Shown: positions 43,800 through 63,956 of the stretch, piece after piece
Layout: every line of letters starts with the position of its first letter
How positions within the stretch are numbered: position 1 is the stretch's first letter
Origin: Rhodospirillaceae bacterium
GTDB lineage: Bacteria; Pseudomonadota; Alphaproteobacteria; Bin65
NCBI GenBank assembly: GCA_011523655.1
Contig: WTGH01000009.1
Coordinates: forward strand, 35,151-99,150
Direction: 5' to 3'
Length of the DNA stretch: 64,000 bases
Notes under the pieces: generated by a model
Told to the model about the DNA's origin: nothing
Databases searched by the model: none
What the model saw: only the letters and a program-made list of their open reading frames with translations
Translations under genes and position numbers: made by a program

Positions 43800-46343
43800 T
43801 CAGAACTGCGCGTTGAGCGTGAAGAAGAAAGTGCGGCCCCAGCCGGCCTCCGTCGGCCCGTCGACGCTGCTGGGGTTCGCGCTGTCCACCGAAAGCTTGG
43901 CGTCGGTGACGTTGAACACGCCCGCCGTGATCCGCGCGCCGTTCAGGCCCATCGGAGCCTTCCAGTCGAGTACCGCGTCGTGGCCGAACCAGGACTTGAA
44001 ATCTCCGGTGCCTGCCGAGTTCCTGAATCCGGAACGGTAATTGGAGGTCCAGATGAAACTCAGATTGCCGCGGCGCGCCAGGACCCCGGCGCGAACCATG
44101 TTCCTGGGAATGGCGTATCGTTCCGTATTGCCCGCGACACGCCGTTTGGCGCGGGTGACGTGCCGCCACGCGCCGCGTGCGCCGAGAATGCCCCAGCTCG
44201 TTCTGAAGCCGCCGCCGAACCGGGCGGTTACGCCCTGGAGTTCGGTTTCGACGATATTGGCATAGCTATCGTAAATCGTGATGCCCTGGGCATGATCGAT
44301 GCAGTTCGATTTGTTGCCGCCCTCCTCGCATACTTCCAGATTGCGTATCGCCCAGTCGGCCCTGTTCAGCCCCGCCACGCCGGCGCGCGAGAGCCGATAC
44401 CACTCCACCCCCAGAAAATACTGCCGCTTGCGGGCCTCGACGCCGATGGCGAACCTCTCGTTATCCGATGGGTCGAGCCCGGGATTGCCCGTGATCTCGC
44501 GCGCCACTTGGCGCGCGTTGAGACTTGTGCAGGGACGGGGAGGGGGTTGCGTAAGGTCGGGGACGCATCCGACATAGGGGTGAGACTGCGCGGCGGTGCT
44601 GTGGAGGCTCGACATCGAGGGCGGAGTCTGCCCTGCGCTCCAGGAACTGCGCAGCGTGAGGATTTCGCTCAGACGATAGCTGGCTCCCAAGCTCCAGGAC
44701 GTCAGTCCGCCCACGTCGTCCGCCCGGCCACCGGTGCCCGCAATCCTGAAGTCCAGCTTGTCGGTCAGCGGCAGGGACAATTCCGCAAAAGCCGTAACGG
44801 TCTCGCGCTTGCCCGCATAGCTGACCCCGCCGGAGCCCAACACCTTGGTCACGGGATGGGTCTTGCCGTCCCTGCTGCGAAAGCGCATGAGTTCATGCGC
44901 TTCCAGGCGGCTCAGCCTGACGCCTGCGGTCCAGGCCGCGCTCCGGCCGCCGATCGAAAATCCGCCGCCTTCCAGCGCCAGCCGGGCGCCGAGATATTCC
45001 CCGCCGAATTCGATCTCCTCCCGGAGGCTGCTGAACGCAATGGCCTGCCGATGCGCCGCAGCGTCCGAAAGGGGGTTTTCGAGGTCGTAATCGCCGTCTT
45101 CGACAGCTTGCCTTATCCTGTCGGTATGGACGAAGGTGTTGCCGGACAGCGAACCGGCGAGCCGGTAGGCTTCGAGGCGGGTGTCGTAGCCGAGCCAGTC
45201 GGCGATCCGGCCCTCGACGCCCACGGAGATGTCGTATTCCTCCCACTTCGTATGCCAGTCCCGGTTGCCGTGGCCGATGAAACGGTGCGAGACAAAGAAC
45301 CAATCGTTGTTGTCTCCGATGTCGCTCTTGGCTGCTGCATTGATCGTATCTATCAGGGCCTGACTCGGTGTGAAGCCGAACGTGCCGACCGGCGGGGCGT
45401 AGCGAAATGCCGAATCGCCCTGCCCGACATTGGCGTCCACATGGAATTTGGCCTTGTTGCCGAGCGGGTAATCCAGATTGAGGATCAAGGTTTTCTGGTT
45501 AATGCGGCTGGTGTTCCACGCGATATCGCCGTAGGCGAAACCGCAGCCCTTGTCGCCCGGAGTACGGGCGCCGGGCGGATTGTCGAGCTGGCCGGTATAG
45601 CCATTCGCCGGGTCGCATTCCCCCAGCGCCGCCGATCTTTGGCCGGTTATATTTTCGTCGGCGTCCCGCTGGAGGACCCAGACGGTGTTGCCGCCGGGGC
45701 TGACATTCCTCGCCTGGGCGAAGGTGCCGCCTTCCTGCCAGACGGAGCGGCTGTAGTCCCGGCTGCGCGAGGCGATTTCCTGGCGCCTGAGAATGTCCAC
45801 GCCGAGGGTCATGCGGCCCTTGCCGACCGCCCCGCCCCAGAAGACGCTGCCCTGCAAGCCGGTGCCGCCTTCCCTGGCCGGCACCCGCGCGAGCGCCCGC
45901 GTCTCGAAGCCGTTCAGATCAGTGCGCAGCACGATATTGAGCGCGCCGCGCAGGGCGCTGCCGCCTTGCGTGCCCAGGCTGTCGCCGCTCAGAATCTCGA
46001 TGCGCTCGATGGCCGAAATCGGCAAGGTGTCCAGATCGCCGGAGGTCGAGGCATAAGGCCTGCCGTTGACCAGGACGGGCAGCGACTGCCCGCCGGTGAG
46101 GAAATAGCGGATAATGCCGGTATTCAGCAGTTCCTCCAGCGTCTGGGAGCCGGATCGCTCAAGAAAGCCGCGCTCGTACTTGGCGATGACGCGCGGCTGA
46201 GGCGCGAGCGAACCGGCACCGGCGTTCGCCGCCGGTCCGACGACAAGCGCCCCTGCCAGGCACCACAGGGTGAGCGACCGGCGGAACATCCGCCGATGCG
46301 GCGGCTTCCGGCCGCGGCGCCCGAGTTTCGACATACGACGCAT
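43800..46343 (-). CDS. TonB-dependent outer-membrane receptor
   Basis: An 847-residue receptor. A signal peptide (about residues 18-45, 'RSLTLWCLAGALVVGPAANA') is followed by a plug domain ('SGSQTLEELLNTGIIRYFLTGGQSLPVLVNGRPYAS', 'IERIEILSGDSLGTQGGSALRGALNIVLR') and a 22-strand barrel ending in 'GRTFFFTLNAQF' with the terminal Phe. The start at 46343 has GAGGAG 8 nt upstream. It likely imports a large or scarce nutrient (sugar, siderophore or cobalamin); the closest regulator is the LacI protein. No TonB box is obvious. Codon use is less GC-biased than the neighbours. Confidence 0.92.
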   Translation of the reverse strand: MRRMSKLGRRGRKPPHRRMFRRSLTLWCLAGALVVGPAANAGAGSLAPQPRVIAKYERGFLERSGSQTLEELLNTGIIRYFLTGGQSLPVLVNGRPYASTSGDLDTLPISAIERIEILSGDSLGTQGGSALRGALNIVLRTDLNGFETRALARVPAREGGTGLQGSVFWGGAVGKGRMTLGVDILRRQEIASRSRDYSRSVWQEGGTFAQARNVSPGGNTVWVLQRDADENITGQRSAALGECDPANGYTGQLDNPPGARTPGDKGCGFAYGDIAWNTSRINQKTLILNLDYPLGNKAKFHVDANVGQGDSAFRYAPPVGTFGFTPSQALIDTINAAAKSDIGDNNDWFFVSHRFIGHGNRDWHTKWEEYDISVGVEGRIADWLGYDTRLEAYRLAGSLSGNTFVHTDRIRQAVEDGDYDLENPLSDAAAHRQAIAFSSLREEIEFGGEYLGARLALEGGGFSIGGRSAAWTAGVRLSRLEAHELMRFRSRDGKTHPVTKVLGSGGVSYAGKRETVTAFAELSLPLTDKLDFRIAGTGGRADDVGGLTSWSLGASYRLSEILTLRSSWSAGQTPPSMSSLHSTAAQSHPYVGCVPDLTQPPPRPCTSLNARQVAREITGNPGLDPSDNERFAIGVEARKRQYFLGVEWYRLSRAGVAGLNRADWAIRNLEVCEEGGNKSNCIDHAQGITIYDSYANIVETELQGVTARFGGGFRTSWGILGARGAWRHVTRAKRRVAGNTERYAIPRNMVRAGVLARRGNLSFIWTSNYRSGFRNSAGTGDFKSWFGHDAVLDWKAPMGLNGARITAGVFNVTDAKLSVDSANPSSVDGPTEAGWGRTFFFTLNAQF

Positions 46344-46488
46344 ATCGAATCTCCTCAAAACAGATGGGAATGGCCACATCGTGGACATGCGGCAGGATCG
46401 AAACAACCCTGTAAATCGTTATATGCACGCAAGGAATTTGTTATAGGCGGCGTAACGCATCCGGCTCGCAACGACGGGGGAGAGCCCC

Positions 46489-47709
46489 TTGCCCCAGGCC
46501 TTCGACAGCATTCGCATTCTCGATTTCACCCAGGTCGTCGCCGGGCCCTATGCCGCGCAATTGCTGGGCAACCAGGGAGCGGAAGTCATCAAGGTTGAAC
46601 CGGCGCAGGGCGACCAGCTGCGCAAGATCTTCAAGACGGGCTCCCAGCCGCCGGACGCCGATTCGGCGGCCTACCAGCTGGTCAACCGGGGCAAGCGTTC
46701 GATAGCGGTCGATCTGAAAAACACGGCCGGCCGCGACGCGATCCTGAAGATCGCCGCCGGCTGCGACGTGCTGCTGGAGAATTTCCGGCCCGGTGTCATG
46801 GCCCGGCTGGGGCTGGACTACGATGCGATCGGGCGCGTGCGGCCGGATATCGTCTACTGTTCGATTTCCGGCTACGGCCAGACCGGGCCGCTGGCCGGCG
46901 AACCGGCCTATGACGGCACGATCCAGGCGATATCGGGCATGATGTCGAACAACGGCCATCCGGAGACCGGCCCGACCCGCGCCGGCTTCCTGCCGGTCGA
47001 CGTGCCGAGCGCCTTCCTCGCCGCCTACGCCGTCGCCGCCGCCCTGTTCCGCCGGGCGCAGTGCGGCCGCGGCCAGTATATCGATCTGGCCATGATCGAC
47101 GCCGCCATCCTCATGCAGCTCTCGGTCTTCTCGCGGGTCTTCACCGACGGCAGCGGCGGCGGCCTGATCGGCAACCGCTCGACCGCAGCCGTCCTAACGG
47201 CGGACGCCTTCCCGTGCAGCGACGGCTATATCGCGGTGAGTGCGGTCACCCGGCCCCAGGGCCGGATCGTGCTCGAACTGGCCGGGCTCGATCCCGATCT
47301 GTGGGACGATTTCGATCCCGAGAACCCGACCGCCCCGCGCTCGCAAGAGGTCGTGGACATCGTCTACGCGGCGTTCCGCAGGCGCCCGATGAAGGAATGG
47401 GAGGCCCGGCTGCGCGAGGCCGGGCAGTCGGCCTCCTGCGTGCTCGACGCCAAGGCCGTTGCGGCACTGGACCAGATGGCCCACCGCGCCGTGTTCCGGG
47501 ACGATCCGGCCGACGATCCCGCGGCCCCGCGCACCATCGGCGGCGCCTTCGTGGCAAACGAGGACGGGCCGGACATTCGCGGCGCGGCATCGGCCATCGG
47601 CGCGGATACCGAAGCCGTGCTGGCCGATTTCGGCTTTTCCGGCCCGGAGGTCGCAGCGCTCCGCGAATCGGGCGCCATCCCGGTCGCCGGCGCACCGGCT
47701 TCTTCGTGA
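46489..47709 (+). CDS. CoA-transferase family III (CaiB/BaiF)
   Basis: A 406-residue class III CoA-transferase, which moves CoA between carboxylic acids through an Asp-linked intermediate. 'LDFTQVVAGPYAAQLLGNQGAEVIKVE' is the N-terminal signature, and 'GEPAYDGTIQAISGM' holds the catalytic Asp. The start is TTG at 46489 following GGGGGAGAG; no ATG fits. It is divergent from the TonB-dependent receptor and convergent with the LysR gene. The acyl partner is unknown, as for most of this large family. Confidence 0.92.
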   Translation: MPQAFDSIRILDFTQVVAGPYAAQLLGNQGAEVIKVEPAQGDQLRKIFKTGSQPPDADSAAYQLVNRGKRSIAVDLKNTAGRDAILKIAAGCDVLLENFRPGVMARLGLDYDAIGRVRPDIVYCSISGYGQTGPLAGEPAYDGTIQAISGMMSNNGHPETGPTRAGFLPVDVPSAFLAAYAVAAALFRRAQCGRGQYIDLAMIDAAILMQLSVFSRVFTDGSGGGLIGNRSTAAVLTADAFPCSDGYIAVSAVTRPQGRIVLELAGLDPDLWDDFDPENPTAPRSQEVVDIVYAAFRRRPMKEWEARLREAGQSASCVLDAKAVAALDQMAHRAVFRDDPADDPAAPRTIGGAFVANEDGPDIRGAASAIGADTEAVLADFGFSGPEVAALRESGAIPVAGAPASS

Positions 47710-47724
47710 CCGGAAACGGGACGG

Positions 47725-48597
47725 TCAACCGGCACGCGCGAACTCTTCCCCGATCCAGTCGACGAAAGTGCGCGCCGCCGGCGTTTCCTCATGTTTCGGC
47801 GCGGCGAGCAGGAAATAGCCCTCGGGCAATTCCACGCTGTGCGCGTACGGCCGCTCGAGCCGCCCGTCGGCCAGCAGGTCCCGCGCCAGCGAATCGTGGG
47901 TGATGGCGAGGCCGCCTCCGGTCAGGGCCGCGGTCATCGCGACGACATAAGTCGAGGCGAGGGTGACGCTCCGGTCCCGCGGCAGGCTGAGCCCCTGGCT
48001 GGAGAGCCAGGCCTCCCAGTTCGTCGTCACGCCGACGGTATCGAACAGCGGCGCGGTTTCCCAGCGGCGCATGTCCGGTCCGGCCTCCGGCGCGCAGACC
48101 GGATAGACCCGTTCGACCGCCAGCCGTTTCGCCGTTCCGGGCATCAGCGCGGCGCGGCCGAAGCGGATTTCCACTTCCGGAACGCCTTCTCCGTGCAATG
48201 GGTCCCAGATCGGCGTCGACAGGTTGAGCGACAGCCAGGGATGGGCCGCCAGCAGGCCGCCGAGCCGCGGCGCGAGCCAGAAGGTCGAGAAGGCGAGATT
48301 GCAGGTCACCATCAGGCGCCGGCCCCGGTCGCCGCCGGTCAGCGCGCGGGTGCCGCTGCCCAGGATTTCGAACGCGTCCTGTACGATCGGCAGGTAGTTC
48401 GATCCGGCCTCGGTCAACTGGAGCGCCCGGGTCTTGCGGACGAACAGGCCGAGCCCGAGCGCGGCCTCCAGGCTCCGGACATGCTGGGACACCGCCGACT
48501 GGGTGAGATTCAACTCCGCCGCCGCCTGGGTGAAGGAGAGATGCCGCGCCGCCGCCTCGAAGGCGCGCAGCCAGGTGAGGGGAGGGAGGCTCGCCAC
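47725..48597 (-). CDS. LysR-type regulator, GcvA-like
   Basis: A 290-residue LTTR. The HTH 'PPLTWLRAFEAAARHLSFTQAAAELNLTQSAVSQHVRSLE' is of the GcvA/AmpR branch (Pro-start, 'SFTQAA.EL..TQSAVS'). 'TCNLAFSTFWLAPRLGGLLAAHPWL' begins the effector-binding domain. The start is GTG at 48597. It is divergent from the desaturase-M24-Rieske cluster, with a perfect 6-6 dyad between them, so it very likely regulates that cluster and itself. The effector may be a substrate of that pathway. Confidence 0.93.
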   Translation of the reverse strand: MASLPPLTWLRAFEAAARHLSFTQAAAELNLTQSAVSQHVRSLEAALGLGLFVRKTRALQLTEAGSNYLPIVQDAFEILGSGTRALTGGDRGRRLMVTCNLAFSTFWLAPRLGGLLAAHPWLSLNLSTPIWDPLHGEGVPEVEIRFGRAALMPGTAKRLAVERVYPVCAPEAGPDMRRWETAPLFDTVGVTTNWEAWLSSQGLSLPRDRSVTLASTYVVAMTAALTGGGLAITHDSLARDLLADGRLERPYAHSVELPEGYFLLAAPKHEETPAARTFVDWIGEEFARAG

Positions 48598-48625
48598 GGC
48601 CGCTGGTCTCCATGCGCAACCGATA

Positions 48626-48642
48626 CATTAGTATTCCTAATG
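48626..48642. promoter_or_regulatory. LysR-type binding site (perfect dyad)
   Basis: CATTAG-TATTC-CTAATG is a perfect 6-bp inverted repeat with a 5-bp centre and fits the LTTR T-N11-A rule. The half-site CTAAT is what I remember as the recognition word for E. coli GcvA, the same branch as the adjacent regulator. It lies 29 bp from the lysR start and 78 bp before the desaturase start at 48720, and would fall inside the coding region if the track start (48612) were used. Confidence 0.75.
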
Positions 48643-48719
48643 TTACCGTTCCGAATCCATCGTTTGTCAATCCTGAGCCGGCTGCGCAGGGTTGGACCGG
48701 AAGGCCCGACAACAGGCCG

Positions 48720-49769
48720 ATGGCGATGCCGGACTGTGCCCCGACTAATGCGGCCCCGACCAATGCGGCGTCGAGCGGCATAACCCTCGACCGGAAGACG
48801 CTGAAAGCGCTCGCGCAGCGATCCGACCGGCCGGGCCTGGCCTATCTCGCGCAATGGGGCTGCGGGCTGCTGGCGTCCGGCGCCCTGGTCTGGCTGTCCC
48901 TCGGCACGCCCTGGCAATGGCCGGCCATGTTCGTCCACGGCGTGCTGCTCACGGTTCCGGCCTACGCGCTCAGCCACGAAACGGCCCACGGCACCGCGTT
49001 TCGCAGCCGCCGCCTGAACGAAACGGTCCTCTGGCTCACGTCGCTGCTCTACATGGAGGAGCCGCTGCACCGGCGCTACACCCACACCAATCACCACACC
49101 CACACCTGGCATGTCGGCAAGGATTGCCAGATGCCGTTCGACACGCCGCTGGCGCTGGGCGGCTGGCTGGCGGAGGCCTCGGGGCTGGCATTGCTGCGCT
49201 ACCAGGCGACGGTCCTGCTGCGCCTGGCGGCCGGCCGCTACACCGGAGTCATGCGCATGGTGACGCCGGAGGGCGAACTGCCGAAGATGACGCGCAACGC
49301 GCGCATCTTTCTCGCCGTTTATGCCGGCGCCGCCCTGCTCGTGGCGCTCGGAGGCTCTTGGCTGCTCTGGTTCCTGGTCCTGCCGCGCCTCCTCGGCATG
49401 CCGGTCATGATGCTGTTCACGCTGATCCAGCATGTCGAGATGCAGGAGAACTCACCGTCGATCCTCGAGAGCACGCGCTCGTTCCGGACAAACCGTCTCG
49501 GCCGGTTCCTGTACGCGAACATGAATTGGCATGTGGAGCACCATCTTTATCCCCAGGTGCCTTTCTTCGCCCTGCCGGCGCTGGCCCGCGCTGTCGCCGC
49601 GCAGGTGCCGGCGCCCGATCCGGGCTTTTTCCGCACGAATTGGGCGGTGTTCGTCGTCGTCGTCCGGCGCAGCCTGGGCCTGTCGACCGGCGCGCCGTCG
49701 ATCCGCCAGGCGCCGCACATGATTACCGACGGCGGCGCCTTCGCGCGCGTCGCCCAGCGGACCATGTGA
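48720..49769 (+). CDS. Fatty-acid-desaturase-family membrane di-iron enzyme (MocD-like)
   Basis: A 349-residue integral membrane oxygenase. All three histidine boxes are present: HxxxH in 'SHETAHGTAF' (86-90), HxxHH in 'HRRYTHTNHHTHTW' (about 117-128), and HxxHH in 'NWHVEHHLYP' near residue 265. Hydrophobic pairs lie between them. Members add or remove hydrogens using O2 and a small iron-sulfur donor. A Rieske ferredoxin of the MocE type lies two genes down, as in rhizopine mocDE. I prefer the start at 48720 because the LysR dyad lies upstream of it. The substrate is unknown and need not be a lipid. Confidence 0.85.
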   Translation: MAMPDCAPTNAAPTNAASSGITLDRKTLKALAQRSDRPGLAYLAQWGCGLLASGALVWLSLGTPWQWPAMFVHGVLLTVPAYALSHETAHGTAFRSRRLNETVLWLTSLLYMEEPLHRRYTHTNHHTHTWHVGKDCQMPFDTPLALGGWLAEASGLALLRYQATVLLRLAAGRYTGVMRMVTPEGELPKMTRNARIFLAVYAGAALLVALGGSWLLWFLVLPRLLGMPVMMLFTLIQHVEMQENSPSILESTRSFRTNRLGRFLYANMNWHVEHHLYPQVPFFALPALARAVAAQVPAPDPGFFRTNWAVFVVVVRRSLGLSTGAPSIRQAPHMITDGGAFARVAQRTM

Positions 49770-49845
49770 TGGACAGGCTGATCACTGGTCCGGCCGAAAA
49801 GCCGGCAGCACTTACCGAAGTTTCCAGCCGGCTGCCGATGCACCG

Positions 49846-51144
49846 ATGAACGAGGCGGCGGACTATCGGAAGACCTTCGCCGCCCGGCCCCAGCCGCTGA
49901 CGCTGGAACAGGCCGCGCGGATCACGCCGCCGGCCCGGGTCACGGACACCGAGGGGCTGCTCGACGTTCCGCGGATGCGCGCCTGGCGGCAGAACCGGCT
50001 GCGCGAACAGATCGCCGCCCACGGGCTGGACGCCGTCGTCCTCGTCGAGCCGCTGTCGATCCGCTACGCTGCCGGCGTGCGCAACTGCGCGCTGTTCCAG
50101 ATGCACATCCAGGCCGGATACCTGTTCGTGCCCGCCGACGGCCCGGTGATCTATTTCGACAGCGAGCCGGGGCGGCACACCGGCCGCCAGCTCGAAACGA
50201 TCGACGAGGTCCGGGACGATCTCCTGCCGCTCTCCTACATGTTCGCCGGCTCCCGGCAGCGCGAAACGGCGCGCAAGTGGGCGGCCCAGATGGGCGATCT
50301 CCTGAAAGAGCATTGCGGCGGCGGGGCGCGGGTCGCCGTCGACCGCATCGGCCGCCGCGCCGCGCAGGCGTTGATCGAAAATGGCTTCGCTCCCGCCGAT
50401 GCCGCGCCGATCCTCGCCCATGCCCGCAGGGTCAAGTGTCCGGAGGAAATCCTCGCCATGAATCTGGCGCTGGCGGCGGCCGAGGACGGCATGAACCGCA
50501 TGCGCGAAGCCCTGCGCCCCGGCATCGCGGAGCAGGATCTTTGGGCCCTGATGTGGCAGGCGACGATCGAGCATGGCGGCGAATGGCTCGACTATCGCCT
50601 GCTCGCCTCCGGGGAGCGGACCAATCCGTGGCAGCAGGAAGCGTCGGGCCGGGCGATCCGGGCCGGCGACCTGGTGGTTTTCGACTGCGGTATGGTCGGG
50701 CCGCTCAGCTACGGCGCCGATGTCAGCCGCGCCTTCCATTGCGGTCCCGGGCGACCGAGCGACGAGCAAAGGAAACTCTATACGCTTGCCTGGAACGAGG
50801 TGACGCACAACACGGAACTGCTGCGCGCCGGCACGTCGTTCCGCGATTTCATCGCCGCCCGCTATATCCAGGAGCCGGGCTACGGCGACCAGCCCTATCC
50901 CTGCCTCGCACACGGCGTCGGCATGGGCGACGAGTGGCCGGTCATCCACCATTCGCCCGAGCATGACGATCATTATGACGGCGCGTTTGAAGCCGGCATG
51001 GTGATTTGCGTCGAGAGCTATGTCGGCGAGGTCGGCGGCGTCGAAGGGGTCAAGCTGGAGGACCAGGTTCTCGTCACCGAATCCGGGCCGATCGTGCTGT
51101 CGCGCTATCCCTATGAGGACTCGCTCCTCGGCCGCGAGGTCTGA
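49846..51144 (+). CDS. M24-family metalloenzyme resembling DMSP lyase DddP
   Basis: A 432-residue creatinase/aminopeptidase-fold protein. Metal ligands: D280 and D292 ('VVFDCGMVG', 'GADVSRAF'), H356 ('LAHGVGMGDEWP'), E390 ('ICVESYVGE') and E405 ('KLEDQVL'). Compared with my memory of Roseovarius DddP (D295, D297, D307, H371, D377, E406, E421), offsets are constant at 15-16. The DddP catalytic Asp377 is kept as D362, but D297 is Gly here. Shared blocks include 'RLLASGERTNPW'. It may be a DddP relative with changed substrate, or a peptidase. It sits between the desaturase and the Rieske gene. Confidence 0.72.
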   Translation: MNEAADYRKTFAARPQPLTLEQAARITPPARVTDTEGLLDVPRMRAWRQNRLREQIAAHGLDAVVLVEPLSIRYAAGVRNCALFQMHIQAGYLFVPADGPVIYFDSEPGRHTGRQLETIDEVRDDLLPLSYMFAGSRQRETARKWAAQMGDLLKEHCGGGARVAVDRIGRRAAQALIENGFAPADAAPILAHARRVKCPEEILAMNLALAAAEDGMNRMREALRPGIAEQDLWALMWQATIEHGGEWLDYRLLASGERTNPWQQEASGRAIRAGDLVVFDCGMVGPLSYGADVSRAFHCGPGRPSDEQRKLYTLAWNEVTHNTELLRAGTSFRDFIAARYIQEPGYGDQPYPCLAHGVGMGDEWPVIHHSPEHDDHYDGAFEAGMVICVESYVGEVGGVEGVKLEDQVLVTESGPIVLSRYPYEDSLLGREV

Positions 51145-51160
51145 GGAAGGAGGCCGGCCC

Positions 51161-51469
51161 GTGGGCGCATGGATCGAGGTCTGCGCGGCGGGCGATATCG
51201 AGCAAGAGGACCTGATCCGCTGGGACTACGGAAGCCGGAGCTTCGCGATCTACAATACCGGGAAGGGCTATTTCGCGACCGACGGCTATTGCACCCACGA
51301 GCGGCAGCATCTCGGCGACGGCCTCGTCATCGGCCCGGTCATCGAGTGTCCCCTGCATCAGGGACGCTTCGACATCGCCACCGGCAAGGCGCTCACCCCG
51401 CCGGTCTGCGAGGATTTGGCGACCTATCCCGTCAAGGTCGAAGGCGGCGTCGTCTTCGTGCGGCTATAG
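51161..51469 (+). CDS. Rieske [2Fe-2S] ferredoxin, MocE-like
   Basis: A 102-residue small Rieske protein with the ligands C44-x-H46 ('GYCTHERQHLGDGLV') and C63-x2-H66 ('IECPLHQGRFD'). 'FAIYNTGKGYFATDG' and 'PVCEDLATYPVKVEGGVVFVRL' are as I remember in MocE and related oxygenase ferredoxins. The start is GTG at 51161 with GGAAGGAGG upstream. It lies 16 bp past the M24 gene. It most likely feeds electrons to the di-iron desaturase two genes upstream. No ferredoxin reductase (mocF) is in the window. Confidence 0.93.
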   Translation: MGAWIEVCAAGDIEQEDLIRWDYGSRSFAIYNTGKGYFATDGYCTHERQHLGDGLVIGPVIECPLHQGRFDIATGKALTPPVCEDLATYPVKVEGGVVFVRL

Positions 51470-56432: not shown

Positions 56433-57416
56433 TCAGGCGGCCTCCGCCGCGCTTTCCAGGACGAGGCCGCAGGAGTCAAAGGCCGCCCGCGTCGCCGCCT
56501 TCTCCGCCTCGGTCAGCGGCAGGCCGGGACGGCGGACATGGCCGCCGGTCTGGCCGAGCAGGTCCTGCCAGTATTTCTGGTGGCTGTGCGGCTTGCCCGG
56601 CGGGCGCGTGCCCTTGAGCGCCCTGCGCACCGGATCGAGGCTGTCGCGCACCGCGCGCGCCTGCGCGGTCTCGCCGGCGAAGGCGAGGTCGGTATATTCG
56701 CGCATCCGCTTGTCGGCGGCGGTCTGGATCAGGTAGGGCGGCGAGGAGCAGAGATAGAGCCGCCAGCCCAGCTCGACGATATTGTCGAACCATTCGTCCT
56801 CCGACGCGGTGCTGACCAGGATGCGGTCGCCGGCGAGGTCGGTGAGGCGCGCATACATCTCGCGCGGAACGCTGTATTTGATCGCCACGACATTCGGCAG
56901 GTCGGCGACCCGGCTGCACAGTTCCGGGCTCATCAGATAGCCGCTGTCCGGGTGGCTCCACATGGCGACGGCGATATCCACCCGCTCGCAGATATAGCGG
57001 TAATACTCGTAGACCGTGTCGTCGGGATCGTTGTTGAAATGGAGCACCGGCGCGTGGACGACGATATAGGGGCTGCCGACGGCCTCGGCATGCCGCGCCA
57101 GGTCGATCACGACGTCCAGATTCTGGTCCGAGCAGGACATGATGGTGGAGGCCGGGCCGCCGGCGCACTCTTCGACGGCGATCTCCAGGCAGCGCTTGCG
57201 CTCGTCCAGCGACATGGCGAAGAACTCGCCCTGCTTGCCGGAAATGAAGAAGCCGTCGACCTCCAGATCGTCGATCCAGTGGCGCAGATTGCGCCGCACC
57301 GCGGCCTCGTCGATTGCGCCGTCCCCGGCGAACGGGGTGAGCGCCGCCGCCCAGATGCCCTTCATGTGCTCGCGGGCATAGTCCTTGGCTTCGGATTTCC
57401 GGTAGGGGAGGGCCAT
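56433..57416 (-). CDS. DapA-family (dihydrodipicolinate synthase/NAL) lyase
   Basis: A 327-residue TIM-barrel protein. 'MKGIWAAALTPFAGDGAID' is the family start, 'GFFISGKQGEFFAMSLDERK' the pyruvate-binding loop, and the Schiff-base Lys is K180 in 'NVVAIKYSVP'. The usual Tyr segment 'YN.P.RT' reads 'MWSHPDSGYLM', so the proton relay differs and the substrate is probably not that of DapA. Such outliers include decarboxylating or hydratase-aldolase enzymes of aromatic or sugar-acid routes. It lies 4 bp from the upstream molybdenum hydroxylase gene. Confidence 0.88.
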   Translation of the reverse strand: MALPYRKSEAKDYAREHMKGIWAAALTPFAGDGAIDEAAVRRNLRHWIDDLEVDGFFISGKQGEFFAMSLDERKRCLEIAVEECAGGPASTIMSCSDQNLDVVIDLARHAEAVGSPYIVVHAPVLHFNNDPDDTVYEYYRYICERVDIAVAMWSHPDSGYLMSPELCSRVADLPNVVAIKYSVPREMYARLTDLAGDRILVSTASEDEWFDNIVELGWRLYLCSSPPYLIQTAADKRMREYTDLAFAGETAQARAVRDSLDPVRRALKGTRPPGKPHSHQKYWQDLLGQTGGHVRRPGLPLTEAEKAATRAAFDSCGLVLESAAEAA

Positions 57417-57420
57417 TCCT

Positions 57421-59628
57421 CTACTCCTCCTGCTCGTGCTCGATCCCGGCGCCGGACCCGGAGTCGGTTTGGGTGTCGGTTCGGGCGTCGCGGATCGCCT
57501 GCCAAATATGTGCAGGGGTGTAGGGCATGTCGAGATGCTTCACGCCGAGCGGGCGCAGGGCGGCCATGACGGCGCAGGCGATCGCCGCCGGCGCGCCGAT
57601 GGCGCCGGCCTCGCCGATGCCCTTGGCGCCCAGCAGGTTGGCCGGGCTCGGCGTCTCCATCCGCTCCAGCGTCACCGGCGGCATGTCTCCTGCGCGCGGA
57701 ATGCCGTAGTCCATGAACGACCCGGTAAGCAACTGCCCGTCCGCGTCGTAGACGATGCGTTCCAGCACCGCTTCGCCGACGCCCTGAGCAATGCCGCCGA
57801 GCAGCTGGCCCTCGGCCAGCATCGGGTTGACGACCGTGCCGGCGTCGTCGAGCCAGACCAGCCGCTCGACGGTCAGCACGCCGGTTTCCGGATCGATGGC
57901 GACGGTGCAGCCGACCGCGCCGTAGCCCCAGGCTTCGCCTTCGGCGCTGTAGGTGACGTCGGCGACCAGGTCTCCGGCCTGTGACGCGATGGCGGTCCAG
58001 TCCGGACGGTCGCCGATGGGCCTGCCCAGCCGTTCTTCCGCCTGCCGGCGGAGGTCGCGGCAGGCTGCGACCAGCGCGCTGCCGCCGATCGGCGTGCTGC
58101 GGCTCGCCAGCGCGCCGATGGCGGTCGCCGGGGCGCGGCTGTCGCCATGGACGACGGCAACCGTATCAGGATCGACGCCCAGTCCCCCGCCGACGATCTG
58201 CCGGACGGCGGTGGTGCGGCCCTGGCCCTGGGCGGTCGAGCCGGTTGCGGCGGTCATCGTGCCGTCGGCGCTGAGCGTCAGGCGCGCGGTCTCCCAGCCC
58301 AGGCCGGAAGGCTCGATATAGGCGACAGTCGCGCAGCCGCGCAGCCGGCCATCGTCCGCCGGCGGCTGGGTGGCCATGAGGGCCTTGGCCCGGTCGTAGG
58401 CGGCGGCGTAGTCGCCGCTGTCCAGGGTCTGGCCGGTCGGCGTCGTCCACGGCATGTCGGTGGCGGGTACGAAATTCCGGCGGCGCACGTCTTCAGGCGG
58501 CAGATCGAGCGCGCCGGCGAGCCGTTCGATCAGCAGTTCCATGGCGAGCGCGGCTTCCGGCCGGCCGGCCCCGCGATAGATGCCGACGGCGGCGCCGTTC
58601 GTCTCGATGCCGGCGGCGTCGATTTCGACGGACGCGACCTTGTAGGGGCCGGGCAGGATCCGCCCGGCGTTGCGCGCCGGCACGACCGCGCTGTAGGGCA
58701 TCCACGAACCGAGCGGCGCCCGGACCGCGGCGTCGAGATGGAGCAGCGTCCCGTCGGCGGCGGCGCTCAGGCCGGCCTCGACGGTCTGGCCGCGGCCCTG
58801 GGTGGCGGCGAGAAACTCCTCGCTGCGGGTAGCGATCCATTTCACGCAGCGGCCGAGCGCCCGGGCGGCGAAGGCGACGGCGATATCTTCGGGATAGAGC
58901 GACGCCTTCATGCCGAAAGCGCCGCCGACATCCGGCGCCACGATGCGAACCAGGTCCGGGTCCAGCCCGAGCACGGCGGCCAGTTCCTCGCGCGCCCGGT
59001 GCGGCGACTGGCTGCCGAGCCAGACGGTCAGGCGTCCCGGTTCGGTAGCGGCATCGGCGACCAGCCCGCGCGGCTCCAGCGCCGCCGGAGCGAGCAGGGG
59101 CTGGCGGAGCGAGACGGTGGCGCGCGCCGCCGCATTGCGGGTATCCGCCGCCGGCAAATTCCACGCTTCGCGCGCCCGGTGCGGCCCCGCTTCGCCGTTC
59201 GGCGGGATCGGGGGAAGCGGATCGATTTCGGCAAAGACGGCTTCAGCGGCGTCGAGCGCGGCGGCGGCGGTCTCGGCCACGACCAGGGCGACGGGCTGGC
59301 CGACGGCCGAGACCGTTCCGGTTGCCAGCGGCTCGGGGGGAAGCGGCCGGAGTTCGGGCATGAGCGGGTTGACCGAGGTCCTGCCGAGACCGGCAAGGTC
59401 CACGCCGGTGAAGATGCGCACGACGCCGGGTAGGGCGGCTGCTTCCGCCGTATCGATCCCGACGATCCGGCCGTGCGCCTCCGGGCTGCGCACGAAGGCG
59501 GCGTGGAGGCAGCCGGCGATCCGGATATCGTCGGTGAAGCGGCCCCGGCCGGTCAGGAGCGCCCGGTCCTCGACACGCAGGCGCGCCTGTCCGACGCCGC
59601 CGGACGATGCGGTTGAAACTGGTGTCAC
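57421..59628 (-). CDS. Molybdenum hydroxylase large subunit (xanthine dehydrogenase/CoxL family)
   Basis: A 735-residue molybdopterin-binding subunit. It begins 'RVEDRALLTGRGRFTDDI', continues with 'GQPVALVVAET' and 'VAPDVGGAFGMKASLYPEDIAVAFAARAL', and ends with 'LLGAKGIGEAGAIGAPAAIACAV', which holds the active-site Glu. It lacks the 'AYRGAGRPE'-to-Cys loop typical of true CO dehydrogenase ('GIYRGAGRPEA' here), so it is a form II or xanthine/aldehyde-type enzyme. The medium (FAD) and small (2Fe-2S) subunits, nearly always adjacent, are absent. It heads an operon with the DapA-family and methyltransferase genes. Confidence 0.9.
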   Translation of the reverse strand: MTPVSTASSGGVGQARLRVEDRALLTGRGRFTDDIRIAGCLHAAFVRSPEAHGRIVGIDTAEAAALPGVVRIFTGVDLAGLGRTSVNPLMPELRPLPPEPLATGTVSAVGQPVALVVAETAAAALDAAEAVFAEIDPLPPIPPNGEAGPHRAREAWNLPAADTRNAAARATVSLRQPLLAPAALEPRGLVADAATEPGRLTVWLGSQSPHRAREELAAVLGLDPDLVRIVAPDVGGAFGMKASLYPEDIAVAFAARALGRCVKWIATRSEEFLAATQGRGQTVEAGLSAAADGTLLHLDAAVRAPLGSWMPYSAVVPARNAGRILPGPYKVASVEIDAAGIETNGAAVGIYRGAGRPEAALAMELLIERLAGALDLPPEDVRRRNFVPATDMPWTTPTGQTLDSGDYAAAYDRAKALMATQPPADDGRLRGCATVAYIEPSGLGWETARLTLSADGTMTAATGSTAQGQGRTTAVRQIVGGGLGVDPDTVAVVHGDSRAPATAIGALASRSTPIGGSALVAACRDLRRQAEERLGRPIGDRPDWTAIASQAGDLVADVTYSAEGEAWGYGAVGCTVAIDPETGVLTVERLVWLDDAGTVVNPMLAEGQLLGGIAQGVGEAVLERIVYDADGQLLTGSFMDYGIPRAGDMPPVTLERMETPSPANLLGAKGIGEAGAIGAPAAIACAVMAALRPLGVKHLDMPYTPAHIWQAIRDARTDTQTDSGSGAGIEHEQEE

Positions 59629-59808: not shown

Positions 59809-61329
59809 ATGGCCCGACGCGCCCGGGCCGCGCGCCAACGGTCTGCTGCCGCCAAGGGGGCGCCGGCTTCGCCCTATATCCGGCGGCGCCTGCCGGCATT
59901 CGAAGTCCTCGACGAGGAAGAGCTCCGGCGCATCGAAACCCAGGTCGACTGGATCGTGCAGGATGTCGGAATCGCCTTCCGCGGCGATCCCGAGGCGCTG
60001 CAATTGTGGCGGGAGGCGGGCGCCACCGTTGACGACGATCTGGTCCGCGCGCCGGCGGACTGGGTCCGCGCGATGTGCGCGAAGGCGCCGCGCCAGTTCA
60101 CGCAGCGTGCGCGCAATCCCGACCGCTCCGTGGTCATCGGCGGCGACAACCAGGTCTATGCCGCGGTCTACGGCCCGCCTTTCGTGCGCGACCTCGAGGG
60201 CGGCCGGCGCTATGGCGATCTCGAGAGCTTCCGGAACCTGGTGAAGCTCATCTACATGCACCCGCACCTGCATCACGGCAGTTTCGTGGTCTGCGAGCCC
60301 TGCGACATTCCGGTGAGCACACGCCACCTCGACATGCTTCACGCTCACATGACGCTGAGCGACAAGCCGCATTTCGGCGCCATTACCGAGAAGAGCCGGG
60401 CGCAGGACAGCGTCGACATGGCCGAGATCGTCTTCGGCCGGGAGACGATGGACGAGCACTGCGTCATCCTCGGCAACGTCAACACCAACTCGCCGCTGCT
60501 GATTGACAAGGTCGTGACAGAAGCCATCCGGGCCTATTGCGGACGGGGGCAGGGCATCGCCGTGGCGCCCTTCATTCTGTCCGGCGCCATGGGGCCGGTC
60601 TCGACCGCCGCGTCGGTCGCCCAGGCCCTCGCCGAGGCGCTGATGGTCTGCGCCTTCGCCCAGCTCGTGCGGCCCGGCGCGCCCTTCATCCTCGGCAATT
60701 TCCTGACCTCGATGTCGCTGAAATCCGGCGCGCCGACCTTCGGGACTCCGGAGCCGGCGCTGTCGCACTATGTCATGGGCCAGCTCGCCCGGCGGGCCGG
60801 GCTGCCCTTGCGCTGCGGCGGATCGCTGACCTCCTCGAAGATCGAGGATGCGCAGGCGGCCTACGAATCCGCCGATTCGATGCATTCGACCGTGCTGGCC
60901 GGCGCCAACTTCGTGCTCCAGGCGGCCGGCTGGCTGGAGGGCGGCCTGTGTACCGGGTTCGAGAAGCTGGTCATGGACGCCGACCGGCTCGGCGCGTACC
61001 GGAAACTGGTCGGCGAAGGCCTCGACACCGGCGACGAGGCCCTCGCCCGCGACGCCTATGGCGAGGTCGGCCCCGGCGGCCACTTCCTGGGCTGCGGCCA
61101 CACGATGCGCAACTACCTGACCGCGTTCTACGAGCCCGCTCTGTCCGACAACGACACCATGGAAAACTGGCTCGAACGCGGTTCGACCGACATGCGCCGC
61201 CGCGCCCATGCGCGCTGGAAGGAAATGCTGGAGCAATACGCGCCGCCGCCGATGGACGAAGCCGTGCGCGAGGAACTCGACGCCTTTGTCGCCCGGCGCA
61301 AGGAGGAACTGCCGGAAGCGTGGTATTGA
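59809..61329 (+). CDS. Trimethylamine methyltransferase (MttB) family protein, non-pyrrolysine
   Basis: A 506-residue corrinoid-protein methyltransferase-family TIM barrel. 'RRLPAFEVLDEEELRRIETQVDWIVQDVGIAF' is the standard N-terminus and 'GAPTFGTPEPALSHYVMGQLARRAGLPLRCGG' a conserved core. No in-frame stop interrupts it, so it is not the pyrrolysine enzyme; its relatives include glycine betaine methyltransferases. No corrinoid protein gene is beside it. AAGGAGG precedes the ATG. A TauABC-like transporter converges with it and might import its substrate, a methylated amine or betaine. Confidence 0.92.
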   Translation: MARRARAARQRSAAAKGAPASPYIRRRLPAFEVLDEEELRRIETQVDWIVQDVGIAFRGDPEALQLWREAGATVDDDLVRAPADWVRAMCAKAPRQFTQRARNPDRSVVIGGDNQVYAAVYGPPFVRDLEGGRRYGDLESFRNLVKLIYMHPHLHHGSFVVCEPCDIPVSTRHLDMLHAHMTLSDKPHFGAITEKSRAQDSVDMAEIVFGRETMDEHCVILGNVNTNSPLLIDKVVTEAIRAYCGRGQGIAVAPFILSGAMGPVSTAASVAQALAEALMVCAFAQLVRPGAPFILGNFLTSMSLKSGAPTFGTPEPALSHYVMGQLARRAGLPLRCGGSLTSSKIEDAQAAYESADSMHSTVLAGANFVLQAAGWLEGGLCTGFEKLVMDADRLGAYRKLVGEGLDTGDEALARDAYGEVGPGGHFLGCGHTMRNYLTAFYEPALSDNDTMENWLERGSTDMRRRAHARWKEMLEQYAPPPMDEAVREELDAFVARRKEELPEAWY

Positions 61330-61358: not shown

Positions 61359-62252
61359 TCAGACCTTGCCCTTCCACGGGACGAGGGCCCGCTCGATACG
61401 CCGCATGATAAGATCGAAAATGAAGGCGACGGCGCCGATAACCACGATGCCGAGGAAGACGATATCGGTGGCGAGGAAACGGGCGGCGTTCAGCACCATC
61501 ACGCCGATTCCCGCCTTGGCCGCGACCATCTCGGCGGCAACGAGGGTGGTCCAGCCGAAGGCGATGGCGACCCGCATTCCGGTCAGGATTTCCGGGAGCG
61601 CCGCCTTGATGACCACCTGGCGGATCACCTGCTGGCTGGTTGCGCCCATCGAATAGGCCGCATGGATCTGCTCGATCGATACCGAACGCACCCCGGCGCG
61701 CGCGTTGATCGCAATCGGCGCGAAGCAGGCCAGATAGATCAGGAAGAGCTTGCCGGATTCCCCGATGCCGAACCAGATGATGGTCAGCGGCAGATAGGCG
61801 AGCGGCGGAATCGGCCGGTAGAATTCGATCGGCGGGTCGAACACGCCGCGGGCGTAGCGGCTCATGCCCATGGCGATGCCGATGGGCACCGCGGTTATGA
61901 CCGCCAGGAAGAAGGAGCCGAAGACCCGGTAGAGGCTCCAGAGAACATGCTCGTGCAGGGCATGTTCGCTGAAGCCTTGGCATTCGGACGTGACCGCCGC
62001 ACTGGCGCCGATCAGGACGAGCAGTTGTTCGAAATAGTAATCCGTGCAGGCGATCCTGTTGAATTTCGAGATCACCATCTCGGGCGCCGGCAGGAACAGG
62101 GGCCGGATCAATTCGAGTTGCGTGGCGAGCCACCAGCCGCCCAGGATGATCACGATGGTCACCGCGCTGATGGCGGTGCTCCTGCCGCGCCCCGGTGCGC
62201 CGTACTGGTCTACGACCTCCGATTTCCGGCGCGAGAATATCCCGAGATTCAT
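61359..62252 (-). CDS. ABC transporter permease (TauC/SsuC type)
   Basis: A 297-residue permease with about six to seven membrane segments; 'ISAVTIVIILGGWWLATQLELI' is the first. The coupling EAA loop reads 'QIHAAYSMGATSQQVIRQVVIKAALPEILTGMRVAIAFGW', as in nitrate/sulfonate/taurine permeases. The start overlaps the ATPase gene stop by 4 bp (ATGA). It converges with mttB at 29 bp. It is part of a binding protein-ATPase-permease unit on the minus strand. Confidence 0.93.
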   Translation of the reverse strand: MNLGIFSRRKSEVVDQYGAPGRGRSTAISAVTIVIILGGWWLATQLELIRPLFLPAPEMVISKFNRIACTDYYFEQLLVLIGASAAVTSECQGFSEHALHEHVLWSLYRVFGSFFLAVITAVPIGIAMGMSRYARGVFDPPIEFYRPIPPLAYLPLTIIWFGIGESGKLFLIYLACFAPIAINARAGVRSVSIEQIHAAYSMGATSQQVIRQVVIKAALPEILTGMRVAIAFGWTTLVAAEMVAAKAGIGVMVLNAARFLATDIVFLGIVVIGAVAFIFDLIMRRIERALVPWKGKV

Positions 62253-63049
62253 GGCTCCAGCCCGCTCCTCTCTTCGCCGTAGATGATCGAGAGGATCTCT
62301 TCGCGCATCGCGATGAATTCGGCCGAGGACTTGACCTGCCTCGCATTGCCGGATTCGAAATACTGGTTGTAGAAATCGAGTTTGTACTCGTGCGTGATGC
62401 GGCCCGGCCGCGGCGACATGACGACAAGGCGGGTCGCCATGAACAGCGCTTCCTCGACGCTATGGGTGATGAAGAAGACGACTTTCCGGGTCTTCTGCCA
62501 AACGTCGAGAATCAGTTCCTGCATATTCTCGCGGGTGAAGGCGTCGAGGGCGCCGAGCGGTTCGTCCATCAGCAGCATGTCCGGGTCGCAGGTCAGCGCC
62601 CGCGCCAGCCCGACCCGTTGCTGCATCCCGCCGGAAAGCTGGTAGATCGGATAGTTTTCGAAGTCCGACAGGCCGACCAGGGCGAGGTTCTCGCGCGCCC
62701 TGATGCGCCGCTCGGCGCTTGCCACGCCCTGAAGCTTGAGCCCGAACTCGGTGTTCTGAATGACGTTGAGCCACGGAAGCAGGGCGTGTTTCTGGAAAAC
62801 GACGCCGCGGTCCCGGCCCGGCCCGCTGATCGGATCGCCCTTGTGCAGGACCTGGCCGGATGTCGGCGGCAGAAACCCGGCGATGACGTTCAGCAACGTG
62901 GTCTTGCCGCAGCCCGAAGCGCCGAGCGCGACGACGAATTCGTTTTCCCGGAACTCGAAGTTCACGTCTTCGAGCGCCTTGACGCTTCCCAGCCCTTGCA
63001 GGGCGGGAAACACCATGGCGACGTGATTGAGGCTGATGACCGCGGTCAT
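62249..63049 (-). CDS. ABC transporter ATPase (TauB/SsuB type)
   Basis: A 266-residue ATPase with Walker A 'GASGCGKTTLLNVIAGF', signature 'LSGGMQQRVGLARAL', Walker B 'MLLMDEPLGALD' and switch 'FFITHSVEEALFMATRLVVMS', the taurine/nitrate/sulfonate subfamily pattern. It is coupled to the permease. An interval of about 160 bp with a strong hairpin separates it from the binding-protein gene upstream. Confidence 0.95.
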   Translation of the reverse strand: MTAVISLNHVAMVFPALQGLGSVKALEDVNFEFRENEFVVALGASGCGKTTLLNVIAGFLPPTSGQVLHKGDPISGPGRDRGVVFQKHALLPWLNVIQNTEFGLKLQGVASAERRIRARENLALVGLSDFENYPIYQLSGGMQQRVGLARALTCDPDMLLMDEPLGALDAFTRENMQELILDVWQKTRKVVFFITHSVEEALFMATRLVVMSPRPGRITHEYKLDFYNQYFESGNARQVKSSAEFIAMREEILSIIYGEERSGLEP

Positions 63050-63146
63050 GGGTGCCTGCCGATGTACGGCCGGTCCGGGCGCTCATGCGAAGGACGGTTC
63101 GGGAAACGCGCCCTTCCGAGCGGTTGAAGCCGGACGCTGCCATCCC

Positions 63147-63179
63147 GGCCGGAACCGGCGCCCATCGCCGGTTCCGGCC
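63147..63179 (-). terminator. 14-bp hairpin between binding-protein and ATPase genes
   Basis: GGCCGGAACCGGCG (63147-63160) pairs perfectly with CGCCGGTTCCGGCC (63166-63179) across a 5-nt loop. There is no T-run, so it is a weak terminator or an RNA-stabilising hairpin. Its position, just after the binding-protein stop, mirrors the terminator at 21463 in the Liv operon. Confidence 0.6.
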
Positions 63180-63212
63180 GAAACGACATTTGTGTGCGGC
63201 AGTCCCCGGCGC

Positions 63213-63956
63213 CTAGCAGCCGCCTTCCAGCGCCATCTTGGCGAATTTCGGGTTCGCCGAATCCGCGTAGCTGTCCAGCACCTTGTCGAGCTTGCCCTGG
63301 GCCTTCAGGAACTCCGAGGCCGCCTTCAGCGCGTTCTGCACGCCGCCGCCCAACCAGGTTCCGGAAATCTGCTGCTGGAGCGTCGGGTAGTCGTACAGGG
63401 CCAGCACGCCGCCGACCTGGCTCTCGTCGCCGGACACCGCGGCCGCGATCCCCTTGGCGTTGGCGGTGCCGGGGCCGTACTTGCCGGGGTTGGCGCGATA
63501 GTCGGCGTCAGCCGCCGCCACCATCTTCACCCACTGGCAGGCAAATTTCGGGTTCTTGTCGGTGAAACCCTTGCGCGCGACCATGGCGTCGAACGTGGCT
63601 TTGCCCCAGTTGCTGAGGTCGCCGGAGGTCAGCAGAACCCGCCCCTTCTTCTTCATGCGGCCGAGCGCCGGATCCCAGACGAAACCGCCGTTGATGTCGC
63701 CGCGTTCCCACGCCGCAACCATATCCGGCGGAGACATGTCGATGACCTTCAGTTCCTTCGGCGAGATGCCGAACTGCTCCAGGGCGAACATCATGTGGAA
63801 ATGGGTCGTCGAGCCGAATGGCACGGCAATCGTCTTGCCCTTGAGGTCCTGCGGCGCAGTCACCGACTTGTCGACGACCAGGGCTTCGGCATCGTTGATG
63901 TTATCGTAGATGTAGATGACCTGCAGGTCGACGCCCCGGCTGTAGCCGGTGACGTA
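63213..63956 (-). pseudogene. TauA-type periplasmic binding protein, N-terminus missing or interrupted
   Basis: The frame reads from 'YVTGYSRGVDLQVIYIYDNI' through 'GKTIAVPFGSTTHFHMMFALEQFG' and 'NGGFVWDPALGRMKKKGRVL' to 'FAKMALEGGC', about 248 residues of a TauA/SsuA-like receptor; the family has about 320-340. Directly upstream is an in-frame TGA (63957-63959). The next 41 bases to the window edge resemble no TauA N-terminus in any frame. So the gene is broken at about 63957, perhaps by an inserted element, or the assembly ends in a junction. The track ORF starting at 63863 is an artefact of this. Confidence 0.7.

Follow-up and report, generated by a model that had tools for sequence, protein, structure and literature searches.

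A conserved gene set joins a MocDE-type oxygenase and a DddP-like M24 protein in a Rhodospirillaceae bacterium and its relatives: a candidate module for the breakdown of a methylated compound

Why does a metalloenzyme of the M24 family, related to the dimethylsulfoniopropionate (DMSP) lyase DddP, stand between the two genes of a MocDE-type oxygenase, and what might the three proteins do together? The question is raised by a stretch of 64,000 nucleotides from a Rhodospirillaceae bacterium (assembly GCA_011523655.1, contig WTGH01000009.1, positions 35,151 to 99,150; hereafter the window, at its full length), in which the genes of a desaturase-fold protein, an M24 protein and a Rieske ferredoxin follow one another on the plus strand, divergent from a LysR-type regulator gene on the minus strand. 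An earlier sequence-only reading of this locus had proposed that the M24 protein acts on the substrate or the product of an O2-dependent demethylation or hydroxylation, and we followed it up computationally. As judged from sequences and gene contexts, the three genes form a real, conserved module of known parts, self-regulated and in a combination for which the searchable literature yielded no description: among 385 alphaproteobacterial genomes, which hold 127 DddP-like genes, a MocD homologue lies within 5 kb of five of the six genes that belong to the clade of the window protein (10 to 107 bp away) and of none of the 121 others, where chance alone would give about 0.4 MocD/DddP-like pairs in the entire data set. 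Because several bacterial lineages keep the gene set together, breakdown of a small methylated compound is a probable role; for the fuller picture, a substrate-induced catabolic module in which a small, probably betaine-like compound would first undergo O2-dependent demethylation or hydroxylation and then be hydrolysed or lysed by a new M24 subtype, we put the chances at about even. The features of the locus are these, in window coordinates:

47725-48597, minus strand: LysR-type (GcvA-like) regulator, divergent (PF00126, HTH_1; PF03466, LysR_substrate)
48626-48642, no strand assigned: predicted LysR operator, inverted repeat CATTAG-TATTC-CTAATG (motif scan, conservation)
48662-48670, plus strand: second conserved promoter element, GTTTGTCAA (fixed spacing to the operator among relatives)
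48726-49769, plus strand: MocD-type di-iron oxygenase of the fatty-acid-desaturase fold (PF00487, histidine boxes, orthologue alignment, tree)
49846-51144, plus strand: M24 metalloenzyme, DddP-like branch, Gly where DddP has Asp297 (PF00557/PF01321, ligand alignment, tree)
51161-51469, plus strand: MocE-family Rieske [2Fe-2S] ferredoxin, GTG start (PF00355, TIGR02377)

All four genes were confirmed as first described, with gaps of 76 bp between the MocD-type and M24 genes and 16 bp between the M24 and ferredoxin genes. One boundary had to be moved: the MocD-type gene had been started at 48612, where the longest open reading frame (ORF) begins, and we place its start at the residues MPDC, at about 48726, because the conserved operator sits inside the longest ORF and homologues in the orthologue alignment begin there.

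The genome-context search over the Alphaproteobacteria that the earlier reading had called for thus found the genes to be neighbours, and they are so in many genomes rather than rarely. Beyond that class, our sampling consisted of one contig scan, one phylum sample and plasmid records. The contig scan returned 11 relatives of the M24 protein (69 to 86% identity) in metagenome-assembled genomes (MAGs) labelled Alphaproteobacteria, Rhodobacteraceae, Gammaproteobacteria and Thiotrichales; in most of them MocD, M24 and usually MocE are contiguous, and in two (L011 and L014) a PanB-like gene lies between MocD and M24. Across 14 clade members from several collections, the genes found within 5 kb include MocD (10 cases), MocE (7), a class II aldolase (5) and a PanB-like gene (3). 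The sister lineage, Alisedimentitalea scapharcae, a cultured marine isolate, together with strain M382, carries on a plasmid a LysR gene followed by genes for a hydroxyacid dehydrogenase, a thiamine diphosphate-dependent decarboxylase, MocD, MocE and M24. Since the set recurs across lineages and in this sister, it was probably already assembled in the ancestor shared by clade and sister and later passed between lineages. Part of the clade is probably sponge-associated, to go by the bin names RHO1, COS2 and CAR2, which match sponge species in Robbins et al. 2021 (PMC8163846). No published description of MocDE together with a DddP-like M24 protein was found in the searchable literature, outside which most subscription journals lie, in keeping with the earlier reading, which knew of no described pathway joining them; literature on homarine, guanitoxin and MttB/betaine links likewise held no match to the gene combination. 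In a Thiotrichales MAG (L018, 9744-9977), a MocD remnant of 77 residues directly precedes an intact M24 gene.

The cluster appears to have its own switch. Among NCBIfam models the LysR protein best matches the GcvA subfamily (209.7 bits, below the cut-off of 288), and an orthologue holds the same divergent position in L009, L010, L014, L054-L056, L190 and L074. The motif ATTAGN5CTAAT has its sole window match at 48627-48641 and none in 100 shuffles, and this site is conserved in L009, L010 and L054. Four genomes of the same genus (4.0-4.5 Mb each) have a single site apiece for its longer form, CATTAG-N5-YTAATG, always upstream of the cluster, so that the palindrome is both conserved and confined to the cluster, as would be expected of a divergent LysR regulator with an operator of its own. 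CTAAT cores are characteristic of GcvA-type LysR sites, and the inverted repeat fits such a site as the predicted operator. The second element, GTTTGTCAA, lies at a constant spacing from the operator in L009, L010, L054 and L014, with one change in L190, and the promoter block is retained although the first gene downstream of it varies among relatives.

The two outer proteins are recognizable by sequence as a putative oxygenase and its probable electron donor. The desaturase-like protein matches PF00487 (E = 2.9e-31) and bears all three histidine boxes originally reported (HETAH, HRRYTHTNHH and HVEHH), with metal-site histidines invariant among the aligned orthologues, as in the three-box desaturase domain of a MocDE oxygenase; no solved structure related to it by sequence was detectable. 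In the MocD tree it belongs to a clade of 17 rows (Shimodaira-Hasegawa-like approximate likelihood ratio test [SH-aLRT] 99) that adjoins, with support of 97, a group containing the MocD-MocE-FAD oxidoreductase-PanB-like operon of Sinorhizobium pSymB. The ferredoxin has the expected Rieske pair (C-T-H and C-P-L-H) and scores 128.4 bits against the MocE family model TIGR02377, just below its cut-off of 136.15. Identity to the pSymB pair, 34% for MocD and 58% between the ferredoxin and the MocE-annotated protein, bears out the proposed likeness to MocDE. AlphaFold2 models, built from shallow alignments, were too poor for use (mean predicted local distance difference test score 53.7 for M24 and 48.1 for MocD).

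The M24 protein is the unusual member of the set. It matches PF00557 (E = 1.3e-30) and also PF01321, and its closest solved structures are those of DddP (E = 1.3e-66), the best prolidase reaching only 5e-19; grouping with general Xaa-Pro peptidases, which would have undone the original proposal, is thus not what we find. Its best NCBIfam match is likewise DddP (NF043017), at 294 bits, half of the cut-off of 600. The metal site of DddP has six ligands (PMC4108388), all of which are reported to be needed for DMSP lyase activity, and M24 peptidases use five (PMC5395565). From the DddP set (D295, D297, D307, H371, E406 and E421), the window protein keeps five, and its five M24 ligands (D280, D292, H356, E390 and E405) are invariant in the clade, as in a five-ligand, two-metal site. 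At the sixth position, Asp297, stands G282; the 13 readable members of the clade all have Gly here, whereas 95 of 98 other relatives have Asp. What had been called a full M24 metal site is therefore full for the five usual M24 ligands and lacks the sixth of DddP, and the term "DddP-like" applies to ancestry alone. The catalytic Tyr366 and Asp377 of DddP correspond to Y351 and D362, both invariant in the clade, and the Phe278 position is Gln263. Compared with the Xaa-Pro peptidase 1pv9, both substrate-binding histidines, whose places are taken by Phe278 and Asp377 in DddP, are replaced, by Gln263 and Asp362; the metal site thus resembles that of a peptidase, with five ligands, but neither of the histidines typical of peptidases is left. 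To judge by these residues, neither DMSP lyase activity nor ordinary Xaa-Pro peptidase activity is likely, and DMSP is an unlikely substrate because the DddP-specific sixth ligand is lost.

This picture is supported by the M24 tree, where the window clade (13 rows, SH-aLRT 100) adjoins the Alisedimentitalea protein (99), and the proven enzymes RlDddP and RnDddP fall in a separate, distant clade of 11 rows (SH-aLRT 100) with which the window protein is not monophyletic. The root of this tree is unsure because its outgroup rows are poor (the L003 row is a wrongly chosen ORF and others sit on very long branches), and we used only supported inner clades. The same genome encodes a second DddP-like protein (L073, contig C35, 712-2049), 44% identical to the window one, which retains Asp297 and is not beside MocDE.

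Which compound the module handles can be approached through the company its genes keep. In relatives the module is larger, with an aldolase, a PanB-like protein and transporters added. The sister genome G279, whose M24 protein is 97% identical, has a class II aldolase gene (PF00596) between operator and MocD, where the window and the genomes G357 and G185 have none; the orthologue in L058 scores 405 bits against NF005689 (cut-off 260). Because the window genome has no close class II aldolase elsewhere (best 41%), its lineage seems to have lost this gene from an ancestral operon of the order aldolase-MocD-M24-MocE. PanB-like genes are found together with MocDE in two distinct clades of the MocD tree, and their products are 33-44% identical to each other. 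As PanB uses methylene-tetrahydrofolate, such a partner would make sense beside a one-carbon unit, as from a demethylation.

Pointers to a substrate come from three clade members without a nearby MocD, in which demethylation-type enzymes adjoin the M24 gene: DMGDH/GcvT in L015, MttB plus DMGDH/GcvT in L017, and a GbcA-like Rieske protein plus an old yellow enzyme in L012. The wider DddP-like family often adjoins genes for MttB, DMGDH/GcvT, PhyH and glycine-betaine ATP-binding cassette (ABC) transporters, in neighbour frequencies taken without a matched control. A ProXWV set, its ProX above the cut-off, lies 3-6 kb from the aldolase-M24 pair in L057, and a sodium/solute symporter heads the operon in L057 and L058. 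We therefore rank an N-methylated compound first among substrate classes, without high confidence, with a betaine-like one appearing most likely. Two further family members have neighbourhoods worth recording. On Sinorhizobium meliloti pSymA (L077, 2506-14477), a DddP-like M24 gene stands in a row with MttB, GlxA, isochorismatase and glycine-betaine ABC transporter genes; its product has Gly at the Asp377 position, an exchange common to about 19 family members. On a plasmid of Pseudomonas sp. MPC6 (L076, 5913-8868), another lies beside two similar genes resembling PhyH-type dioxygenases, with a proline/glycine-betaine transporter gene downstream.

A reaction sequence compatible with these observations would run as follows. 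A flavin reductase encoded elsewhere in the genome, as family knowledge suggests, would reduce MocE, which would hand electrons to the di-iron site of MocD; with O2, MocD would then hydroxylate a small zwitterionic or anionic compound, either on a methyl group or on a carbon next to it. A hydroxylated methyl group bound to a heteroatom would collapse to formaldehyde and the demethylated product. The M24 enzyme, whose two-metal site has five ligands and which lacks the usual peptidase histidines, may then cleave a C-N (or C-X) bond in either the substrate or the product, and in relatives the class II aldolase or PanB-like protein may process the resulting fragment, whether hydroxylated or one-carbon. 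The M24 fold offers precedents for such cleavage in DddP and, for C-N bonds of small zwitterions, in creatinase and ectoine hydrolase.

Several facts weigh against this reading. Besides lacking the aldolase, the window genome yielded no PanB-like gene, and neither a transporter nor a flavin reductase (MocF) gene adjoins the window cluster; a reductase gene is in the operon of L078 and apparently also of L193. L016 and L058 carry MocD and M24 without MocE nearby, and in L190 aldolase and MocD occur with no M24 gene; the parts can thus be separated. MAGs account for many of the clade members, and several contigs break off inside the cluster. The aldolase, the IlvD-type dehydratase and the sugar-type ABC neighbours (L014, L189) would suit a sugar-acid or O-methylated substrate equally well. 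This last point leads to a rhizopine-like O-demethylation, in which the compound demethylated by MocDE would be an O-methylated sugar, inositol or sugar acid, the aldolase, dehydratase or PanB-like protein would process the carbon chain, and M24 would remove an amine or amide. Rhizopine catabolism uses mocDEF (PMC10107442), with MocD described as the oxygenase converting 3-O-methyl-scyllo-inosamine to scyllo-inosamine (PMC2593844), and the nearest MocD relatives outside the clade sit in rhizobial MocDE-FAD reductase operons. We nevertheless think such a role unlikely, since it leaves unexplained the N-demethylation genes in MocD-less clade members and the betaine genes beside the wider M24 family, and no inositol genes adjoin the window cluster.

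More doubtful still is the catabolism of a guanidino compound, with MocD hydroxylating an arginine- or creatine-like guanidine and M24 acting, like creatinase, which has the same fold, on the guanidino group. The best, albeit weak, NCBIfam score of MocD, 45 bits against a cut-off of 380, is with the arginine gamma-hydroxylase GntB, and in the sister Alisedimentitalea operon the decarboxylase is of the 5-guanidino-2-oxopentanoate decarboxylase subfamily (581 bits, cut-off 500), with an agmatinase gene about 9 kb downstream; that subfamily, however, is broad and found only in this outgroup, and the clade clusters have no guanidine or urea genes next to them. A genuine DddP lyase for DMSP (or dimethylsulfoxonium propionate) with an accessory oxygenase would agree with the closest solved structures and the retained Tyr366 and Asp377 equivalents, but it seems very improbable given the change of Asp297 to Gly and of Phe278 to Gln in an enzyme reported to require all six ligands, the distance to true DddP on the tree and the low family score. 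Least credible of all is a chance meeting of a general Xaa-Pro peptidase with an unrelated lipid desaturase and a ferredoxin: relatives' records do carry the names "Xaa-Pro peptidase" and "fatty acid desaturase", yet the adjacency is clade-specific and recurs in several lineages, both peptidase histidines are replaced, and the single LysR operator of each genome is located at the cluster.

Oxygenase-dependent breakdown of a betaine-like compound remains our preferred reading. As a bolder and unlikelier possibility, the module could represent a new pathway for an abundant methylated solute. In it, an M24 subtype that has reverted to five metal ligands would catalyse a new small-molecule reaction, for instance splitting a betaine at a C-N bond, which would be the nitrogen equivalent of DMSP cleavage. 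This reaction would be coupled to a MocDE-type oxygenase in the place that MttB, DMGDH or Rieske demethylases occupy in relatives. Both the sea and animal hosts contain large pools of carbon, nitrogen and sulfur as methylated solutes, and many enzymes that use these are still to be found. The module offers a defined target (one regulator, one operator and three enzymes), with a related operon in the cultured Alisedimentitalea scapharcae KCTC 42119. Moreover, a simple rule, Gly at DddP position 297, separates an M24 branch otherwise called DddP-like, which bears on metagenome counts of genes for dimethyl sulfide production.

Other genes of the window were considered separately. CaiB, enoyl-CoA hydratase, aldehyde dehydrogenase and MttB genes near the cluster were dropped as pathway parts because the sister genomes G357 and G185 carry different neighbours there. 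Eight kb from the cluster lies a full-length trimethylamine-methyltransferase family gene (59809-61329, plus strand; MTTB, 728 bits), adjoined by permease, ATPase and binding-protein genes that resemble, from a reading of the sequence, a taurine- or nitrate-type ABC transporter (61359-63863, minus strand). Also on the minus strand are genes for a molybdopterin-binding subunit of xanthine-dehydrogenase type (57421-59628) and a dihydrodipicolinate-synthase-family protein (56433-57416). At 43800-46598, a TonB-receptor-like ORF of 868 amino acids (minus strand) and an open frame of 872 amino acids (plus strand) cover nearly the same bases; the latter is probably a high-GC mirror ORF.

How, finally, does the locus compare with known systems? 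Like the mocDEF genes of Sinorhizobium and Rhizobium, it unites a desaturase-fold oxygenase and a MocE-type Rieske ferredoxin in one operon, and a PanB-like gene, present in some clade relatives too, follows the Sinorhizobium pSymB pair; this pair may be a paralogue of the rhizopine MocDE, the comparison having been made without a verified rhizopine MocD sequence. It differs from mocDEF in being linked to LysR rather than to LacI or MocR control, in having no reductase gene alongside, in the M24 gene between MocD and MocE, and in a MocD of a separate 17-member clade. With DddP (Ruegeria 4rzy; 4b28) the M24 protein shares its branch, a two-domain architecture by sequence, Tyr366, Asp377 and five of six ligands, whereas the sixth ligand, the Phe278 position, the place on the tree and the gene neighbours all differ. 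The five-ligand site with its D-x-G motif is shared with the Xaa-Pro peptidase 1pv9, which the window protein matches at 72 bits over the C-domain only and whose histidines it lacks. The ectoine hydrolase model is matched weakly (35 bits, cut-off 575), and creatinase was not among the solved structures matched. Other DddP-like M24 genes belong to the same wider family and likewise lie in neighbourhoods of methylated-amine catabolism, but nearly all keep Asp297, and MocDE is near them only in the Alisedimentitalea/M382 type.

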